Under the pieces are notes generated by a model that was given only the letters and a program-made list of their open reading frames with translations, was not told where the DNA came from and made no database searches. This document shows, one piece after another, positions 4,827 to 42,500 of a stretch of 64,000 nt of DNA (the stretch's first letter is position 1; every line of letters starts with the position of its first letter). Location: positions 22,201,001 through 22,265,000 of the forward strand of contig NC_092673.1 of NCBI RefSeq assembly GCF_964355755.1. The letters run 5' to 3'. The stretch comes from Antedon mediterranea (lineage: Eukaryota > Echinodermata > Crinoidea > Comatulida > Antedonidae). Both the position numbers and the translations under genes were made by a program.

Positions 4827-7800
4827 ATGAATCATTTACGACTGCTAAACCAGTCTTTGCTGTGCAGAAGAATGTTATTGGCACCGTGCAAGGCTGCTTT
4901 TGTGGCTTCTGCTAGGCCTAGACCCTGGCCTAGGCCAGCCAGATTTGACAGACATTGTTATTATTATTGCACTTGGGACCAATGCCACCAAAACAATGGT
5001 GCCTCACCCATTGGGCCTGACATGGCTTGCGCCAGTGCAATGTTTCAAGATAGGGTAGGTTGTGCAATGGAATCGAAGATTTTAATTGTGTTATCTATTG
5101 AGACAAAAATTAGTAAATTCTTGAAATATAAATAAAAAATTATTAAATATTACATTTATTATTGTTCAAGCGTCACTGGAGTTAGCGTGTCGTTAGTTAA
5201 AAAGATAGGGTATGGGTATGGTGTTAATAACGCCACACACAAAGGCGTAGGCTACGCAAAGTGTACGCCAGCCTTACGCCGGCGCCATACGTGTGAATAC
5301 TTCTTCTGACACTCAAATAAACAAGTAAATACAAATAAAATATATATTCAGAAAGTTCAAGGCCGTAATGAGAGGTTAAAAACAGACGAGGATAAAATAT
5401 GACGATCTGTGCTGGGGAATTAGGTTGGGTGGTGAAAATTGGATCATGCTCATGGCTACGGCCCTAAAGTTATTTCTCTTTCACTTCAGAATAAGAAGTT
5501 ATCTGCCCCTCGCATCGGTGTGTACCGCCAAACAAATGGAAAGCTACATGTAGGACCAGTCTTTAATTGTCAAGATTTACATTTTCTGATCAAAGGACAG
5601 CATGATCTTAAGAATCGATCTAGAAGTAGACGATCAGAATCACTTAATAAAGATGTCAGACCCACATCTGTTATGTGCCTCACAGATGGCATGCATATCT
5701 ATCCTGCTGAAATGTGGAAAGCAGAAGAAGGTGATGCAAAGAGAATTGGAAACAAGAAACAACAAGAGCTTCCTGCTGTCTTTATGATAGAGGAAAGTCA
5801 GATTAATGCCCTGTTGTCTTTGATTTCTTCAAGTATATTAGAACTACAGTTAAAAGAGAAGATATTGAAGCTTGTTAATGAGGTACTGCATGTTGATAGA
5901 CTGATGTGCACGACTGCAAAACCTCACAATTGCAATGCGGATGATATTGCTTGTTACGCAGATATGAATTATAACAGTAGCAACAAACTTGAAAAGTGTC
6001 GTCATATCACACAAGACCAAGGCACAATCAACGATATCATAAAAAATGAATGGCGTGAGAACGATATTAAATGCTATAGTTACTTTAAAAGTCTTGTAGA
6101 TGTCAAATCAAATGATGTACACTCAACAAGCCATGTCTATTTCCGGAGAGGTGTACCACAGTTGTCATCGCAGTATGGTAAAGATGTAGTAAAGGCACTA
6201 CGTCCCAGTAAAGAACAACTGAATCTGATGATGGAAAAGCTTTCAGAAGAAGTAAGTATGTTGAGTATGCAGGTCCTTCATGTGTTCCAGGACATTATGT
6301 GACTTTCTTATAATATGTCCTCAGTTTTCAAATGTATTTCCAGGGTGTCGAGCATATAATATTGATAGTTAAAAATAAATATCAAAAAGTAGTATTAATT
6401 TCATATAATAATGACCCCCCCCCCCCTCCCTCTCCTTTTTATGTAAACTTCATCCCCTGTCCACCCTGTAGTATGGACAATAAAGTGTTATCAGTATCTG
6501 TAATTCAATTGAATTGAATGTTTGTTTCTTTCAGATGCCAAATTTCTTTGCAAAAAATCATGATTTTAACATTTACTCATCAAACATATTGTTTGAAAAC
6601 AAGGTTTTTCATATAAAAACACGGTTTGTATTTAAATTTATTATATTACCATTGAAAAAAACTAACCACTCCTAAAACAGCCCTTGCAGCAGCCTCCCAG
6701 CCGGTTGTTAGTATATCGTCACGAACTGTGCACCCCCTCCTCCACCTTTTCTTTAAGGCTGGATCCGCCCCTGGACTAGTCTTTTATCTGTTTTTGTTTT
6801 CAGTGGTCTTGTTGCTTATAAAGGAAGTATCCAGACAATGAAATATTCTAGTTTTGTGTATTTTACTGATTTACAAATGGAAGTTTTAAAAATAAGTCTT
6901 CAAGAAGAGCGAGATAATATTCAGGTGCGATGGCGTGTCAAAGGCTTACCGGCTCATACTTATTATATTAATAAACTATTGAGAAGAAAAACAAGATACA
7001 GGTATAAATAATATAGGTCATTCCATTTATTGATTTTAATTTAACTGACCAATCAAAGACATGTTGTAAAACAGTGCAGTACAGTAATTCACTAATAATT
7101 TTGTTTATGTTGACACAAATAGGCTTTCATAGATTTCAAATTGAAATAAAAATATAATATACAGTACATAATATAATGTAAATTTATAATAATTTGATTT
7201 CGGTATAACAGAGGTGTGCCCTCTATGGACCCACGGCAGTCACAGTGCAGTGCCTAGTATAGTGTACCATGAATGTGCAATCTGAAAAATGAGGTCTTTT
7301 GCCCAAGGATTTAACAAGCTACACTATTTCAATTCCTTACATTACACTATATCTATATATTATACTGTATAATGCCATTGTTGAACAAATAAAAATTTTT
7401 GAACTTGAACTATGTGGGTCTAATAGATTTGTTTTCATTCTATTTTAGGTATTTTGATGCATTTTCCACATTTTACATAGGACAAGATGGTCTGATTCAC
7501 CGGCATGTGCTTGACAAGGTAAAATATTGTGTTACTAGTGTACTTACGTTGGCAACTAATTCAATAATAAAGTTGTTTACAATTAAGTTCAGAGATCACT
7601 AACATTCTGGACTGCATGTCCTGGATTGCATGAGGTAACTCCTTGAATGATTTTAAAATCAAGACAGTACTTATATTAATAATGCAGTATATGTATGGTC
7701 AAGCATTCCTATTAGTACTGTACTTAAGTACTTTTTGCACATTTTTGCTCCGACACTTCACCTACACCCAATCCAGTATAGCTCTTCATTGAGAACTGTT

Positions 7801-9046: not shown

Positions 9047-12000
9047 GACTCTCAACAGTGTCTTTAGGATGTTGAATCACTTTGTCCACTTTGTTAAGAT
9101 GCACATGAAATGATGGGGTTACCCAAGCACCACAAGAACACTGCTCACCTGTCAGTGAATAAGAGATAGTATTTTGTATCTGGTTGAAAGTGCGCTCAGA
9201 CAAAACTTGCATGGGCATTTACACAGACGAGTGGTAATAGTAACACAAATATAGAATGTTATTCTTTATGACCATTTACACAAAGCGCGGAGCAGATGGG
9301 CTGACAAAACATGGTTTACCGTTACCGCTCGTCTGTGTAAATTGGCCTTTAGGTACAATAATATCATTTGATGAATATTGAATGAAAGATTGAATATAAG
9401 TATACTGGACTGTAGCCATTGTTTGTTTTATCTTTATACTGGGTGACCTCTTCAGTCAAAGACTGATCTCCCAGAGGGCCCAGTTGGTGATGATCAGTGG
9501 CTGTGATATACTAATACACCGGGGTAAGCCCCTACTCGTCTCGAAAGATGTACTAGGTTCTTTAAAGTGCACACGAGCAAGTTGTGTACACTGGACCTAC
9601 GGTTTATAGTCCTTATCCGAGAAGACTCGTTCTACCACCAGAACCATGGAGTGAGTGAGCCTCGAACCCTTGCTGATGTTATGGCTACGTGATTACGGTT
9701 CCACTGTCTTAACCGCTATCGGCCACTCACTCACCATGGTTTGTAAGATTTCAACCGGACCACTTTTTATAGGTTTTTTTTTTATATTAAGTTTAGGAAG
9801 GTTGCCCTTATTTTTTTCAATGTTTAGGAGCTGAACTTTATAATATTCTGATTATTCTTTAGCCCTTCCCTTGATATATTATTGTTTTATTTATGTTTAT
9901 ATATATATTTTTGGGTAAATTAAAGAAAAGAATAACCCTGTAGCCCGCACAGGATTATTTACTTTTATTGCGATAACCGCACCACCTTATTTCTTGCGGT
10001 TAAAGCACATACAGTACTGTGCACATAATAATCAATTATTTCTTACCAGACCAATTAAATGAACCAATTTTAGCTGAGCACTTTGGACAGACAATCTAAA
10101 GAAATTAGAATGGTGTGGTATAATTTAAAACGTGCTGAGTCACATAGATTTATGGTGCTGTTTTTCTTATACTATCTACAGCATTAGGTTTAGTTTAGCA
10201 CTAATGTGTCATAGTAATGCCACATTTTCAACTGGAAATACTGTAATATTAACCAATGTTAGGGAGCATGTATAATAAAACTAAATAAATTTATACTTTT
10301 GCTTTCCGGTAAAATCAGTAATTTTCAGGATTTTTAAAAACTATTTCATATTAATTTCATTTTTTTGTTTACATATTTGCTTTTCCTTGACAATATTTTG
10401 AGTTTAACATATCGTACATATGAAATATTTACCTTGCCCTGTGTGGTGCCGATAATTGCCGACTCCATCCACGAAACTGGTTCAATGAACAAGGATGTAC
10501 ACCTGGACTGTGTTACGGGATCGCTGCTCACTTCAGCTAACATATTCCGTTTGTTCCACTTGAATGCCTCTTGTCCTGACCCTTGATCATGCCCAATGAT
10601 ATTTCCTCTTGACAGCAACAATCGTCTGTTATTTTTAATTGCAAATAAATAATGTCTGCCATTTATTCACTTACATCGTGAACAAATGAAACACAAGAAA
10701 TTGTATTGGTCCACTTTAAAATGGAAATTCATTTTACTTGGCATAATTAAGACAATAAAACAAAAATTGCAAAAAGCAATTTTATAAAATACTATGTCTC
10801 TTTCCAATGATTGTTTATACTGTAGTTCTTTACATACTAATGAACCACTGTATATGCACATTTTTTTGCGACCACCTAAAAAATAAAAATTCTAATTGTA
10901 ATTTACCTGCATTTCTTACACTTAAAGATCACCTCTTGTAACGTTGAACTGTTCTTTGGATCTGCTGCTATTCTGTAACTTGTATCATCTCCAGCTGTAA
11001 GAAAAATTAAGTCATTTTTCAATCCAATTTTTGGTCAAAGTGATAACTGTTATGTGGTATATAGCATATTTAACAATGAAGTGTTGACAAATTATTTTTC
11101 AGTGGGACAATATATCTTTAATATTAAGCATTAAAAAGCAAATCAATTTCTAAGAGTCGCATATAACTTTGTATATAACAAGTGCCAATGGAATACAGGT
11201 AATTTATAATCAATTAAATGTACCTTTAATTTTGTTTGCCCATTGTACTAAACGAAATCGTTTATATCGTGGATCTTCTTTGTCTATTCTGTTTCCCATC
11301 TGATGATACAGTTGTAGTTGTGATATAAATGCCTCGTTTGGCCTGAAAGTGTTAACAAACAAATTCAATTTTTTTTTTAAATTATCTATTCATCATAGAC
11401 ATTATCCAAAAGGTTTCTTAAGCTCTCTGTCTACACTATAAAACTACTTTGACAAAAAGGTGTGATGTGATATGACACCATCATGTTCATATGTGGTCAC
11501 ATTTTGTTGTCACATTTTGATAGTGTAGACAGAGCTTTAGGAGGATTTGCTATAGTAGTCGGGCTGGGTAGAAGGCCTGAATAAGCTTTAAATTTGGTGG
11601 AAGACTTTGGAGATGCTCACCTCAGCACGGCACAATTACATACCATCCAAAAATAGTGATCGATGCAAATAATAAAAAACATACAACAACAAATTACTAC
11701 TTAAATACCATGATTTGAATATCTTACATGACAGCAGGTCTAATTTTCTGTACTTCTTTTAAAGCTTCGTCCACTGTTAGACATTCCTTCTCCATTAGAT
11801 ATGCTATAACAACTGATGCACTCCTTGACACTCCTCCAAAGCTGGAAGAAAATGTTTGAATTTCATTACAGTACATGAATCTCATTCTCTCTGGGTTTAA
11901 AAAACAAATCTTTTAATATGTCCTTACCAATGCACCAGGATTCCACCTTTCTGCAATCCATCTTTGACAAATTCAGTACACTCTGGTAAAAACTGCAGAA

Positions 12001-14066: not shown

Positions 14067-17000
14067 ATGTTAGCCTCAAATGAGGTAGATTCTACCACAA
14101 ATTGTGATCCAACATCAGAGACTGTTAATGATAGTTTGCAAGAAGAAGAAATAGGGAATAGTGATGTCCCACTACAAATAGAAAAGTTCCATGTTGTAGG
14201 ATCATTGATGGAAGTGGAAAATATCATTAGGGAATATGAAAAGAAAACATTCTCAAGATTTGTATCGGACAAAACAGATAGAGGTTTTAATCGCGATGGT
14301 ATGTATTTTAAAGGGTAATCTTGGATACTTTTGTACACAGTCAACTCTCCTAATATCGGACTCTCTGAAAACCGGAAACTCTCCCAAAACTAGGTCCAGA
14401 AGGTCCCAAACATGCATTTTTACCATTCGAAACACATTTCGAAATATCAGACTTTCCTGAAAACCAGACATATTAGGCCAGCCCAAAGGTGTCCGGTATT
14501 AGGAGAGTTATATAATTATTTATTATACTGTCATTGTATATCAAAAGGAAAAAAAGACTGTATTCTCAAAATTCCTTTAAAATACATTAATCACTTAATT
14601 ACACTAGTACTTTGTTTTAATTATGAAAGAGTGGAACCCCTTTTTAACTTAGTAATACTTTTTATTATTTTATTTTGTATCTAGATTGGCAGGCAAAATG
14701 TAAGTTTAGATGGAAGCTGAAAGGTTTCCCATTATTAGACCCAACTATTCCAGCAATGTATCTAGGCTCTAAATTGCTCACATGTCAGTATGGAAAAGAT
14801 CGTAATCTTAAAAACAAAAGGAAATGGAAGGAAAGGCAAAACAGAAAACGGGTAAATATATGATAGATTATATAGAATAATGAAACAAATATATTAACAA
14901 TTATTACAATAATAGGGTAGTTGTGTAAAGCGCATTTTAAGCTATTGGTGTCTGCAAACCATGCTGTAGATATACCTGTTGGCTTCCGTTAATTTAAGCA
15001 TACAGCACCTGAAATTGAAACACCAAAGCTCTTATCTATCTACACTTCCCTATCAAACTTTATGTGACACTAAAATCTAATGTGCCTTTATATAGACATT
15101 ATGATGTCATATTGCTACCATATTTGGGCACATCAAACTAGTTTGATAGTGTAGACAGAGCTTTAGGAATAACCTGATCCATCCTTTGACATAGCAGATA
15201 GTTTGTTATAACCTATACAGGAATGATAGTCTGTTCATCATGTGCAGTGCGTGCAATGTTGTTTATAGATACTGTCAAGTTCCATACATATTTAACACCT
15301 TCAAAAATATAATTAGTAATTTTATAATTTTTAGTCATTCTTTTATTAACTAATTTTAGTTTAACACTTTATGTTGTTAATTGTTGATGTACTATATGTA
15401 CAGTATCTTTTACCTACATTTAAAAAATTTATTTTTAATAAAAACAAATCTTATTTAATCATTAGTTGGTTAACTTTTACAGTTTTACTTCATTATGAGG
15501 TCATTTAGTCTTTTGATTTTCTTTTATGACATCTTTATAAATATGATGATCAATCAGTATGAAATCAAACTTTGTTTATTGGTTGAAAAAAAAAAGTCTC
15601 TTGTATTTTAGGAACTAAATGGAGAAGTTAAAACATACAATAGATCACAACCAACAAAGAAAGTGAATTGTCCAGCATCTATCTGGATAAAGAAGATGGC
15701 AACATTCCCTGCATATAAGGTGAGCATATACAGTGGCTACCAAATATTATAGTGATATGCCCAAATATGGTAGTGATATGCCCAAATATGGTAGTGATAT
15801 ATGACCATATATGGGCAAATCACATTTTTTTGTCACATTAAGTTTGATAATGTAGACAGTGCTTAAGCAGTTGTTCACGTGAAGGTTCAGCTTGTTAAGC
15901 TCTGTCAAAAATAATGTGAATGTGCCCAAATATGGTAGTGATATGCCCAAATATGGTAGTGATATGCCCAAATATGGCAGTGATATGACATCAGCATCAT
16001 GCATGTCCATATATGGGCAAATCCCATAAAGTTTGATAGTGTAGACAGAGCTTTAGTCAACCATTAGTTTGTGAGCATCCAAATACATCTGAGCGCATTT
16101 AAAATAAACAAATAGTATCACCATTAAATGATTTTCTTTGTTTGTAAATTTGTAAGAGGTATGAACAAAGCAAAGTTAGTACAGTAGCTTTTTTTTAAAT
16201 CTAATAATTATGAGGTATAACTTGAAACATGGTTTTAAAATAAACATATAGATTGATTTACTTGTTTTAGTTAACTAGACCAACAGAAAGTTCTAGGAAA
16301 ACAGCTGCTAATAAATTCTGGAACGACAAGACAAAGAATGCAAAATCAGTTGAAGTAATCATGAAATATTTAGTCATATTACCTGATCTTGATATTCATA
16401 AAAACCATCCAGTTGGTGAGGTATGTTTTTATTTTTAATATTTTATAATATATGCTGAGTTATGATAATAATATTGATGAACCATCTGTGCGAGTACTGT
16501 AGCCTCACCATTACTAAATGCTTATGTATGCTGTTAGTTTGTTGTTGTATTATACTGTACTAGTAAATGAAAGTGCAATATAACATACATGTTATGTATT
16601 ATATAAATGTTTATTGTTTTTCTTTAGTCATGTTTAATTGAAAAGACTGCCAAAGAAATTATTCAACAAATTGAATCTCTGGCTGCACGAAAAATCTGGA
16701 AGGTTTCCGTCATCTCAAAACATTTAGATGAGTTCAGGCGCAACACACTCTTCAAAAACAAAGAGATGCCTCCAACGTCCAGCAGAGCATACTTCCCAAA
16801 TCATAAAGATTTGCATAATATTTTATACAGGTACAAATGTAGAAATAGGTCTTCACCTGTAGAACTACAACAACTCGAGGAATTAGTTCAAAATTGGTCT
16901 GAAAAAAATCCAGATGATCATTTTTATTACAGAAGAAAAGTTAATGCGAAAGAAAACTCTAGCTTTTTACTCTGCTATCAGTCAAAACAGCAAAAACGAC

Positions 17001-20000
17001 TGTTGAACTTGTATGGAGATTTAGTTATGCTTGATGCTACTTATAAAACAATTGGTTACTCTGTACCACTTTACTTTCTGTGCGTTCAGACGAATGTGGC
17101 GTATCAAATTGTAGGCTTGTTTATTGTTCAAAAGGGAACTAATCTCACCATGATGGACGCACTCAAAATGTTTAAGACCTGGAATCCTGATTGGAACGCC
17201 AAATACTTCATGTTGGATTTTGCCGAAAAAGAAGAGATTTTCTTGAAAAATATCTTTCCTGGTAAGAACAATATCAAAATTACTGCAGTTTTCATAACAT
17301 AGCTAGCCTGCTATAATAATTAATTTATTAAAGTTCTGAATGACGTTGCTATTAGGATTTTTCCTGGAATAATGATAGTAAAGTATGTTTTCCCAAAATG
17401 TGCTATTTTTACCCCACATAATAGAAAAAAGTGTTACTATATGTCGCATGAGTACACCATCAATTGAAAACAACAGGCTTGGTACAGTAGGTCAGATTTT
17501 TAAAAATAATTTTGTTTGTATGTACTATTTTATTTATACCCTATTTAATTACATGTGTTTTTTTTTTATCTATTTTTTCAGTTTAACTAATTAAATATAC
17601 ATCTAATAAATTACATTTCATATTTCAAATAATTAATTCTTACAATCCACAAAACAAACAATGTATAGTGATAATGGTTTTCTTTTTTCAGACTGTAAGA
17701 TTTTCATGAGCGATTTCCATCGTGAGAAGCGGTGGGAGAGTTGGGGAAAGTGCAGTGAAAATGGGGTAACGGAACATATAGAGATGATGATGTCAACCTT
17801 GCGCAGGATAGCTGATGCTAGCACTACCATTGATTACTTAGCAGCAGTGGCTGGCTTGACGGAAAGTCAAGTATGGAAAAATTCTGTCAAGCTCCAAGAG
17901 TGGATTAACACCATGTGGCTGCCTTCATCTCAGGTAAGAACTGCAGTGCTGCGAGTGCTCTTTTTGTTTTTCATGCAGTGATAATATGAAACTACATCAG
18001 GTTATGCATTTCATCTTTGCATTTTTTGGTGTTGACATAATTCTGTGATGCAATTAGAATTCTTGTCTTAGGACAACTTCCTGTGGACAACTACAGTACA
18101 GCTGGAGAGGGGAGGTAGTTATCTTTGGTTTTTATCATCATAGTGTGTGGTTGCCAGTCAGCGGTATGTCATTTGTGGGGTTGGGGATTTTTTATAATAC
18201 ATTTCCGGATAAGGAGTAGGATAATCGAGATCAATACATTATCATAATAATATCAAGTACATAGCTTTCGTGATCATACAATGTGATTGGGTGTTACAAT
18301 TATATCAATGGTGTAAATAAAAGATCTACTTCATGGCACAAATTATCAGACATACAAGCATTGTTAGAATAACACTTTCTTTGTCCAATGCATCCATGAT
18401 TCATTTGTTGAATCATGGAGGAAATTCCTTCGTGGTTGAATATACTGTGTAGGCAGATAAATAGCATACAATACTCCCTTTGTTTGCAGAACATAAAATA
18501 GTTGCAATTGTTTGTAAATACATAATGCATGAAGATAATGGACAAAAAGATAATCTAAGCTTAAAATATTTTCATATTTAATATTTATTTGGTATGTGAA
18601 AATACACTATGATAGTTTTGGCATGTTTTGGCATACTCAATTGCCTATTTATATGCTGTTTTGGTAAAGTAATCCCAAGTCTGGGAAAACCTTTACTTTA
18701 AAGAGTCTTAAAAGGTCTGATTTCCATGTGTCTCAATTTCTTAAGGCCAACAAAGACAGCGTCGCACTACGTGGCCCGACGAGTCTTGTCGGGAGAAAAT
18801 TAAAAATGTTATAGTTCTTGCTACTACCTAAAAACTATGCCAGACGCTATGTCAAGACTACTCGTCGGAATTAAACTCACACAGCACCAACAAGTCAAGA
18901 TGCTTCGTCGAGCCTTGTCGTACTACGCTGTCTGAGTTGGCCTTTAGACGCCTTCCATTTGATGTGTTCTGTGAAGTCAACACATGATCTGATCATATAT
19001 ATTTATAATTAACTCAATCATAGATAATGTTTTGTTCTTATCCTAGAAATGGGTGAGGGCATTCAAGCCTACTGAGATGGTATTCCATGTACACAATAGC
19101 AATGGATTGAAAATGATGGCTGAGTTGCTTCCATTTGCCTACATACAGAGCTACAACAAAGCTGCAATTAGTAATATGGTAGAAGAGATAGTAACAAACT
19201 TTATGCCGACAGTTTACCATAGGTATGTATTTTATTCCTTTATATTTCATATTTAATACACATGATAGTGCTAAGCGAATTGGAAATAATTTTAAGTCAT
19301 CATTTTGTCTGTTCACATTTTATCACTGGCATGAATGGCAAGTGAAAGGTTTCTGGGTAATATTCTTAGAGGTTGCATACAAATGTTTAAATATGCTTGG
19401 ATTGATTTACTTGATAAAAAACAATAATGAATTGAGTTTTTGATTTAAGAATGCAACAAATATAAAAACATTGTGGTGATGAGTTTTACATATTATCATT
19501 TGGATCAAATTTTTGCTGTCTTTTTCAGATACGAGACAAGGAACCTTGAAGCGATAGAAAGACCAAACATCCCGGAACCTGTACGAAATACGCCAACGTT
19601 TGTAGTAGACACTTTCATAGCCATGTCAAAAAAAGCTGCTTTGTTAGATCAGATAGATATTCAGAAAACAGATTTAGGAACTTTTATAGTTAAAACCGCA
19701 GGAATATTGAACACAGTTTATTTTGGCAGCAGTGAGAAATTACCATTTTGCTACACTTGCGAAAACTGGGAACGTCAACGCCAACCATGTGAGCATTTCC
19801 ATGCTGTCTTCCAACGCCATCCAGAATGGGGCTGGCAACAGTTATGCTCAGAGTTTAGAAACTATCCTAGCCTTATCTTGGATCATAGTATTGTTCCTGT
19901 GCTGAATACTAACAACCAAGAAGCTATGGAGGCGGCATATTTTGTAACCTGTGAGAGTAGTAATGTTGAAAGCGAGTGCGGTGAAGCTTTTGAGGAAATG

Positions 20001-20159
20001 GACCAATCAACATCCTTAGCTGAGAAATGTAGAGAGTGCTTAACTGAAATCAAAGACTTTACTTTTGTAGTTGATGACACGCCTACTCTACAGAACTTGT
20101 TGACATCACTAGAGCAAGCCAAGTGTGCAATTAAGCAGCAAAAACAAGTAACAACTTAA
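14067..20159 (+). CDS. Domesticated-transposase-like gene: ALS2CR8 region, MULE transposase domain and SWIM-like zinc finger, eight exons
   Basis: Exons 14067-14298, 14685-14851, 15612-15719, 16271-16420, 16628-17261, 17692-17933, 19047-19222 and 19529-20159 close in phase to 779 aa. Residues about 78-190 (DWQAKCKFRWKLKGFPLLD, LTCQYGKDR, VNCPASIWIKKMATFPAY) resemble the ALS2CR8 domain of calcium-responsive transcription factor. Residues 350-450 resemble a MULE transposase core: LDATYKT with Asp354, MLDFAEKEE, and MSDFHREKRWE across an intron. Near 644-660, CYTCENWERQRQPCEHFHAV is SWIM-like, although the first Cys pair is CxxC rather than CxC. Seven introns, no terminal repeats and no frame breaks argue for a host gene rather than a live transposon. 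Family knowledge suggests a nuclear DNA-binding role, but the target is unknown. AATAAA at 20211. Orthology to vertebrate CARF itself is not shown. Confidence 0.8.
14336..14512. mobile_element. pogo/Tigger-like MITE in intron 1 of the ALS2CR8-like gene
   Basis: Left arm CAGTCAACTCTCCTAATATC then GGACTCTC; right arm in reverse complement ATAACTCTCCTAATACCGGA then CACC. The CAGT start and the CTCCTAATA-CGGA pattern resemble the pogo/Tigger terminal repeat style. Confidence 0.75.
15024..15166. mobile_element. MITE with CTAAAGCTCTGTCTACACTA termini, copy 2
   Basis: Left AAAGCTCTTATCTATCTACA, right GTTTGATAGTGTAGACAGAG then CTTTAG. The interior carries the ATTATGATGTCATATTGCTA and CCATATTTGGGCACAT segments shared with 46340-46482. 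Confidence 0.8.
15745..16056. mobile_element. Nested/tandem MITE cluster with internal 21-bp repeats
   Basis: Two partial copies of the CTAAAGCTCTGTCTACACTA family lie head-to-tail (right ends at 15841-15866 and 16030-16056, left end near 15896). Inside, GATATGCCCAAATATGGTAG units repeat at 15749-15800 and 15925-15985. The repeat translates to a short SLPYLGI repeat on the minus strand, which is an artefact. Located in intron 3 of the ALS2CR8-like gene. Confidence 0.75.
18742..18947. mobile_element. MITE with TAAAGGCCAAC-AGACAGCGT termini
   Basis: Left arm TTAAGGCCAACAAAGACAGC then GTCGCACTAC; right arm in reverse complement CTAAAGGCCAACTCAGACAG then CGTAGTACGACAAG. The element is 206 bp in intron 6 of the ALS2CR8-like gene, and its GC content is above that of its surroundings. 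Confidence 0.8.
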
Positions 20160-39500: not shown

Positions 39501-42500
39501 TAAAAAGTATAATTTTTAAAAATCATTCATAGCAACAATAACTGATTTGGTAGATTTAAAATAATTATGTACTGTAAATATTATGAAACAAAACTGAAAG
39601 CATATTCTGACATACTGTAATTATTCTTTCATTTTGTATTATAAATTATAGACTACTGTATACATTTAAATTTATTTGCGTGTACAATATTTCAAACTCA
39701 TATCCACTACATATAACATGTAAACATGGTTTTAACTTCTAAATAGAAATGTTGAGAAATGATAAACTTTATTGTGCAGGTATTTTGCTATCTTTATTGT
39801 CTTCGCCCTCGATATAAAAACCATTATGAGGTCTTTCATGCCTGCTCAGATTCCGGCTTCTGCACATAAAATAGCGTCCCAATGTTTTGTTTTCATGACA
39901 ATCCACGTCTATCATTATACTTGATATGCGCATAACCTTGTGGTGTGTCGTCAAAACGAAAATTGGCTAATGCTGTCACTCGAAATCTGACGCGAACTGA
40001 AGCTGAACCGGAGCAGGTGTGGAAAAGCTCTAAATTCATTACACACATACAGTATATATTTGAACCTGCAGAGTGGGAAATATAGAGGGTAAGCTAAAGA
40101 GTGGGAAATATAGAGGGTAAGCTAAATGAAGCTGTTTGGTACAGTATTTTCATATGCTGTACACCTGTTGACATCAGGTCTATGCTTATATTGAGGTTTC
40201 AGTTTAGTTTATTTCACACAACATATAATAAATACATTTGTAATGATAAATATTAAATAATAAAATTTCACTGTGCATGGAGATTTCAATAAGCCATAAT
40301 GGCTTGTGAGCCCACTTTGTAAACAAATCGATCTGCGCATGCGCAAGCATTTCGGAAAAACTTTAGTTACGTACGTCGAGAACCTTATTTCTGATAAATA
40401 GTGTCAGTGAAATGATAACCGAAGGGTATCGAAACATGGAAGAATCATTAAATTTCCGCAAAATGATTAAGAAAACAAAAGTAAATTCAAGTTATGCTTT
40501 TAAGCCAAACAATAAGAATTGTTCATCGCAATATCCTACATATTTATCACCCAATATTTTTTTGTATTTTGTATATTAATTTTTGTCCTCAGTGAGGAAA
40601 TTCGGATTAGGCCCTCCACGGACCCACGGAAGCCAGCAGTGCAGCGCCTACCAGATTAGGCAATGAGAGTAAAGCATCTTGCCTAAGGATGCAATTAGTA
40701 TGGTACAGATAACCTCGAACCCATGCCTATCACATGCTAGTCCGATATTACCATTACACCATCACTCTCCAGTATATACAGCATCCGCCACGATTTCTAG
40801 ACGGTCTCCCATCCAGAACGCAACCGGGCCCAATGTTGCTTAACTTCGGTGATCTGACGAGAACCGGTGTTTCAACGCAGTATGGCCGTATATATCTATA
40901 TCAACCTAGTATCTACCCCCAATTTATTCCATGATTTATTTTAATATGAGCGGTGTATGTTGCGTGCGACACATCCAATGCGTTCTACACTTTATGCAAA
41001 ATGTTAAAATGTTGACATCATCCATTACAGTGAGTGTTTACCTGCGAAAGCTCCTTATAGTAATACACTTTGACTAGTCTTTCACTCAAAATTTTCGCCA
41101 AATTTAAGTTTTCTATTCTGTCATTATTATTTCATATTTACTATTATTTCAATTATTTAAATTATTTTTTTATTAGATACACAGTGCTAAGAAACTTGAA
41201 GATAAAAACAAAGAAGTTGATGACAAAAAGGAAAGAAGAAGAGAAAAAGAAAGTACTAAATCTATCCCAGCAACCCCTACCTCATCCTCGTTGCCATCAT
41301 ATAACAAGTAAAGCGTGATGTTATTAGTATTTATCTTATGCTCAAATATCATGTCAATTGTTATCTATACAGATAAATTAAACACTAGGCAAATATTTAC
41401 ATTGTGAACATCCTGGTGGTTCTTATACAGATATTGCAAGTGAAATGTATTTTGTACTTCATCTCTCTATCTATGTCAATAGAGCCATAATTATTTCCAG
41501 AAGTCTTGATAACAATTTCTGTTAGTAAATTAAACATTTTGGTAGCTTTTCACAGGTCTCGTCGCGTAAACACATATTTATAAGCGTGCACACTTTTCCG
41601 AACTGTCAGTTCGGAAATTAATTAAAGAAAAAATATTTTTTAAGCTATAATGAAATGACATTGGTACTATAATTACTGCAAATAATCAACAATAATTATA
41701 TTTTTTATCAATTTATGATATGAAATTTTAAATACATAAAATTACAATTTTTACTAATATAGTATTTATTATCAGGTCTGAAGCAAGTCTCCAAACTAGT
41801 CACAAGGATTCTATAAAAACACAAATAAGTAATAATACTCAACAAGTTAGTGACGAAGAAAATAAAACGTAAAGTACTATATTTATTATTATTTCCTTTT
41901 ACCTTCTTCAGCCTAATAATATAATTGTTTAGTATTCTGAATTGTATAATAGTGGACATAAAAAGGTGTACTCGCGTAAAACATTTTGATAATTTTAAAA
42001 TAGAAAAGTTATATTTGTTTAGATTTTAGCAAAATGCCTGTCCCAGACCAAGTATAACAAGCAGTTTTGTGGGGAAGAATTAAGACACCATTTCCCAATA
42101 CAATTCCAGCCATTTTCATATCCCGGTGGGGGTGGGTGTATGCAGTAGGGAAAAAACAACCAGACAAACCCTATCTCTCTCTCTCTTAAGGTACTGTAAT
42201 TCCTTTGTGTAATTTCCTCAAATTATTACTTTGTTTTTATGTTACAGAAAACAATCAGAAACTGCACTTGGTGGTGGAAGTAATAGTAAAGAGGATCTAA
42301 AATTTGGGAACCAAGAAGTGCTTGGCGGTACAGAACATAAAATAACAAATGGGAACCAAGAAGTGCTTGGTACTGAAGGTAAAATAACTAATGGGAACCA
42401 AGAAGTGCTTAGTGGTACAGAAAAAAACAAAAAACCAAATGGGAACCAAGAAGTGCTTGGTACTGAAGGTAAAATAACAAATGGGAACCAAGAAGTGCTT

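Follow-up and report, generated by a model that had tools for sequence, protein, structure and literature searches.

A probable SINE family with a composite 5S rRNA and tRNA-like head in the genome of a presumed invertebrate deuterostome

Results

The window, that is the whole 64-kb stretch of DNA analysed here, carries on its minus strand, from ~40893 to 40560, an element made of a 5S unit of 120 nt, a tRNA-like unit of 72 nt, a body of 110 nt and a tail of ~30 nt (Table 1). The 5S unit is recognised by the Rfam model RF00001 at 40773-40893(-), over model positions 1-120, with a score of 68.3 bits and an E value of 2.8e-12, and this match is the sole Rfam hit within the window. Box A, the intermediate element (IE) and box C, placed by alignment with the host 5S genes, are all present and are close to the sequences of those genes. 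As a preliminary description of this DNA had proposed, the 5S-derived unit is directly followed by a tRNA-like unit with an A and a B box: the A box is perfect, the B box has one mismatch and the two boxes are 41 nt apart. The same description placed the element at 40608-40896; the locus was correct, but the element with its tail is longer. The statement that the body is found elsewhere in the window holds for a degenerate 40-bp fragment; however, the conserved domain carried by the second SINE family of Table 1 is absent from the 40.6-kb copy.

Elsewhere in the window, at 16766-20159(+), there are exon-like frames, the first of which has a match to a ZSWIM1/3 RNaseH-like domain and a weak match to a MULE transposase; judging from their sequence, these frames may belong to a domesticated transposase gene. 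The ZSWIM1/3 domain and a class B GPCR exon identify the host as an animal; the assembly gave no match to mitochondrial COX1. Genome-wide, ~150 matches to GT29 sialyltransferase exons, many of them clustered (e.g., C7:20.77-20.89 Mb and C9:6.93-7.21 Mb), reveal a large expansion; to our knowledge, protostomes as a rule have few or no GT29 sialyltransferases, so that the matches indirectly favour a deuterostome, and the host is probably an invertebrate member of that group.

Table 1. Features of the 40.6-kb element and of related sequences (window coordinates unless a locus is named)
Feature	Position	Strand	Basis
5S rRNA-derived head, 120 nt, AUAUAC...GUAUAU, 5S positions 1-120	40774-40893	-	Rfam RF00001, alignment with host 5S genes, fold of family consensus
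5S internal promoter box A AAGTTAAGCAACATT	40832-40846	-	alignment with 5S genes
5S intermediate element (IE) GGGCCC	40826-40831	-	alignment with 5S genes
5S box C GTTCTGGATGGGAGACCG	40802-40819	-	alignment with 5S genes
tRNA-like unit, 72 nt, no spacer after 5S unit	40702-40773	-	recurrent junction; also in long and old forms
pol III A box TGGTGTAATGG, consensus TRGYNNARNNG	40751-40761	-	sequence
pol III B box GTTCGAGGT; ancestral GTTCGAGCC in old copies	40712-40720	-	sequence
Shortened body: 5' body motif TTGCATCCTTAGGCAAGATGCTTTACTCTCATTGCCT fused to 3' body	40592-40701	-	alignment with long-form copies L046-L065
3' tail, AAATTAATATACAAAATACAAAA type, (AAATAC)n	40560-40591	-	sequence; tail units vary by subfamily
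Degenerate body fragment, same family as 40.6-kb copy	7218-7256	-	87.5% over 40 bp, E 2e-7
Second SINE family, Ser/Leu-tRNA-like head, with central domain lost from 40.6-kb copy	~9515-9735	-	nhmmer E 1e-11; 72% over 108 nt, E 2e-12
Further second-SINE copy	L020:1990-2215	-	
Further second-SINE copy	L022:1220-1436	+	

The genome searched comprises 354 Mb in 18 contigs, 11 of which are of chromosome size. A first look gave 1237 candidates, and the 40 matches that were scored all covered essentially the full query; apart from the copy in the window itself they were 98-99% identical, the nearest copies being full length and dispersed. The 5S-tRNA junction, searched as a 41-mer with up to 3 mismatches, was found at 202 genomic places and its reversed control at 0, and the tRNA-body junction at 255 places, again against 0 for the control; these counts take in recognisable copies only. 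In 39 of 42 copies the flanks are unrelated. Old copies are mostly ~80-87% identical to the long consensus, young copies are 98-99% identical, and intermediate copies are also found. The window element is a young member of a real mobile family with hundreds of copies in the genome. This family displays characters of a SINE, with a small-RNA-derived head containing an internal pol III promoter (5S by Rfam; A and B boxes) and with many dispersed copies of uniform structure and independent flanks. Derivation of the head from 5S rRNA is the character of SINE3/5S elements, and in family members a tRNA-derived unit, its tRNA origin read from the boxes alone, comes straight after the 5S unit, as in an AmnSINE1-type head. 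The suggestion that a SINE with such a compound head is a true repeat family was therefore borne out by the recurrence of the junction and by the presence of the composite in the long and old forms. Scans of viral and prokaryote contigs with the 5S unit and with the central domain described below gave 0 matches, as expected for an animal repeat.

We tested whether the 5S and the tRNA/body parts might never co-occur, which would have been fatal to the compound head, and found them together in every age class. In the long form (consensus of 448 nt), whose copies were picked by body similarity, the 5S head is present in 16 of 20. Among copies picked by the 3' tail alone, 6 of 10 contain the 5S unit and the other four break off at scattered points (consensus 159-365). 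In the old form, picked by the tRNA-body junction, the 5S unit was detected by HMM in 11 of 16 copies and by eye in one more (L086), hence in 12 of 16, the remaining four being truncated, ambiguous or without 5S. As these 12 copies of the oldest form carry 5S before the tRNA-like unit, the composite head is ancestral in the family. Copies without 5S look like products of ordinary 5' truncation.

In the tRNA-like unit, young and long forms have an A box without mismatch; in old copies this box ends in A instead of G. The mismatch of the B box lies at its last base in the young form, old copies having a perfect box. The unit was not recognised as a tRNA by ARAGORN or by Rfam (E<=5), and its fold is not a cloverleaf. 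As tRNA models do not recognise it, the term tRNA-like refers here to two boxes and their spacing. SINE heads are often degenerate, and recognition by a tRNA model is not strictly required.

Host 5S genes are located in an array at C6:8632822-8804206 (8.63-8.80 Mb) and at a lone locus, C3:4487846-4487964. The SINE 5S unit is 82% identical to the array genes over ~95 nt; over the whole aligned unit, identity is 77% to the lone C3 gene versus 72-75% to the array genes. The lone gene itself differs by ~10% from the array genes and is closer to the SINE unit. Folding of the 5S consensus of the family yields a 5S-like clover (z -4.6) that none of 200 shuffles equalled. Compared to the host genes, helix I shows changes on both sides of two pairs (G-C to A-U and C-G to A-U), and one pair of helix IV has changed from C-G to U-A. 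These both-sided changes fit a retained structure, but the evidence is weak: the changes are common by descent to all copies, and the covariation is therefore suggestive only.

The long form has two stretches that the short young form lacks, one of ~108 nt (GTCCTTCGGATGGGATGTAAAGCC...GTTAAAGAACTTGGTACACTATTCGAAAAGAGTAGGGGATCGTC) and one of ~14 nt that precedes the tail. Alignment with L046-L065 places the deletion of this ~108-nt central domain of the parental form near 40658 in the window copy. Judged by these alignments, the long form is parental and the young short 5S-tRNA form has discarded the central domain. The 3' end of the SINE consists of GTTAAGCTTGAGGACAAATATGAATACC followed by short repeats, the tail being (ACATTT)n in the old form, (ACCTTT)n in the long form and (AAATAC)n in the short form. 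The second SINE family possesses a central domain of ~100 nt, with 69-72% identity to the domain of the long 5S-tRNA form. Because this domain is present in two differently headed SINEs, it represents a module that different SINEs share. A literature search for the domain as a printed sequence gave no match and returned unrelated papers only; the domain may resemble widespread invertebrate SINE domains, which is a lead only. At L031:1266-1401, the SINE body motif TTGCATCCTTAGGCAAGA recurs in a minisatellite with units of 26 nt.

The preliminary description had called for target-site duplications among the genome-wide copies. In 8 of 42 copies, the sequences on the two sides of the insertion match each other near both junctions, versus 0.85 expected for mismatched pairs, and the mean flank alignment scores exceed those of all 20,000 permutations (p < 5e-5), a value inflated by one TA-repeat copy and one short-tandem-array copy. 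The clearest duplications are an exact one of 16 bp in L019 and one of 17 bp with a single mismatch in L020. The signal is thus present but weak, as a clear target-site duplication is absent from most copies; together with 5' truncation, these duplications are nevertheless those of a SINE. In L025 (near 1485-1500), as well as in L002, L052 and L053, the full 5' end is immediately preceded by a partial repeat of itself (GCCATACTGCGTTGAAA in L025), possibly a duplication of the 5' end during insertion. Several long-form copies on C3 (L055, L056, L061 and L080; 19-25 Mb) are near-identical, with common flanks and direct repeats of ~80-150 bp on both sides, as if a C3 repeat had amplified a single insertion whose target-site duplication was very long. 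A partner LINE was not found through the 3' tail, all 10 tail-selected loci being SINEs, nor through reverse transcriptase reading frames in a random sample, where one LINE that was seen has a different 3' end. Neither consensus contains a run of four T; taken alone this carries little weight, as 14-29% of shuffles also have none.

Discussion

To judge from the sequence features gathered here, the window element very probably belongs to a SINE family that is transcribed by RNA polymerase III, depends on a LINE and has a head composed of a 5S rRNA and a tRNA-like part. The composite was probably formed by reverse transcriptase switching from a tRNA-headed SINE RNA to 5S rRNA, as has been suggested for HaSE3 (PMC3272025). 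Pol III would initiate at the first base of the 5S unit or beside it, through the internal promoter of that unit (box A, IE and box C), since full-length copies retain all of the 5S unit whereas initiation directed by the tRNA A box would fall within its 3' end, and the unit would then be lost. The tRNA-like boxes may assist in TFIIIC recruitment. A LINE reverse transcriptase of the same genome would then recognise the 3' end of the SINE, and insertion would take place by target-primed reverse transcription.

Two other accounts of the locus dispense with a composite head or with retroposition. 5S pseudogenes are common among animals, and one of them might have inserted by chance beside a tRNA-derived SINE at this single locus; with the exact junction at 202 places against 0 for the control, and the same junction in old, diverged copies with independent flanks, the probability of such a coincidence is negligible, and we rejected it as the junction recurs genome-wide. 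Spread by segmental or satellite duplication rather than by retroposition would account for the common flanks and ~80-150 bp direct repeats of the C3 long-form copies, and may hold for that subset. For the family as a whole we rejected it on the basis of the unrelated flanks of 39 of 42 copies; the varied 5' truncations and tail lengths are also typical of retroposition, and duplication is very improbable as the general route.

The two parts of the head raise questions of their own. The head might be 5S only, the tRNA-like unit being ordinary body with accidental A and B boxes, as its being missed by every tRNA model tried (ARAGORN and Rfam), its fold, which is not a cloverleaf, and the final A of the A box in old copies would suggest. 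We consider this unlikely: the spacing of 41 nt is tRNA-like, the ancestral B box GTTCGAGCC is perfect, the chance of such a box pair in 70 nt is ~2e-4 by a rough estimate, and the unit sits exactly at the position of a tRNA head, ahead of the body. The 5S part, in turn, may have been kept not only as a promoter but for an RNA function, its 5S-like fold allowing docking of a ribosomal protein or of the ribosome near nascent LINE reverse transcriptase. The clover of the consensus, unequalled in 200 shuffles (z -4.6), and the three pairs altered on both sides relative to the host genes, two in helix I and one in helix IV, speak for it. However, a recent 5S derivative would fold as 5S regardless, the founder differs from the genes by just three double changes, inherited by all copies, and copies differ from one another in the first two bases of helix I; we regard an RNA function as doubtful, although less so than an accidental origin of the tRNA-like boxes.

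With the composite head as the preferred reading, the closest known relative in design is AmnSINE1, which is made of a 5S promoter, a tRNA-derived region, the Deu domain and a tail (PMC3234267). The module order is the same here (5S-derived promoter, tRNA-derived region, central body domain and 3' tail), a likeness of architecture alone. AmnSINE1 differs by its vertebrate host, the Deu domain in its body and its CR1-type partner LINE (PMC3747384), whereas the present family has an invertebrate host and its young form misses the central domain. In the literature that we found, the 5S, tRNA and body design is that of AmnSINE1 only. SINEs with 5S heads are known from vertebrates and some insects (Kojima 2020, PMC7245038), and they are also reported from a fungus (PMC5063351). 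Zebrafish SINE3, SINE3-1_TC and HaSE3 share with the present family a 5S-derived head that contains box A, IE and box C. In HaSE3 the 5S head is also joined to the body of a tRNA SINE, with template switching as the proposed route (PMC3272025); however, it is reported to stand on the body and tail of HaSE1, whereas the present family keeps a tRNA-like unit behind the 5S. BflSINE1 from amphioxus and SINE2-3_SP from sea urchin are likewise SINEs of invertebrate deuterostomes, DeuSINEs with a central domain conserved in the superfamily, but they have tRNA heads only and no 5S (PMC3747384). The MetaSINEs and the Nin-DC SINEs are tRNA-headed metazoan elements with a central domain common across phyla and, by description only, recall the ~100-nt domain common to two differently headed SINEs here. 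Cassandra and Ajax TRIMs are also mobile elements with a 5S-derived pol III promoter (PMC10886601), but they are LTR elements without a tRNA-like unit or a LINE-type tail.

Judged by published descriptions, the family is best filed as a new SINE family of AmnSINE1-like design, although a Repbase entry may exist. SINE3 elements with 5S heads are described as having arisen independently several times (PMC10886601, PMC7245038), so that a like head is not in itself evidence of common descent, and the AmnSINE1-like design of the new family is possibly convergent. A bearing on the origin of Deu-type SINEs, as raised in the preliminary description, is so far not supported, as the copy in the window no longer carries a central domain. 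Tentatively, and with slightly less than even confidence, we put forward the fuller proposal that, independently of AmnSINE1, a composite 5S-tRNA head was assembled on a non-Deu body in an invertebrate deuterostome, its 5S fold being kept by compensatory change. If this is true, composite heads would be a recurrent solution, whether by way of two pol III promoters or of ribosome docking, and not a vertebrate curiosity. A SINE that drops a domain common to another SINE and yet still spreads bears on what such domains do. As a second case of the design, with young, near-intact copies, the family allows one to ask which of the two pol III promoters is used, why the 5S structure is kept, and whether composite heads reflect shared ancestry or recurrence.
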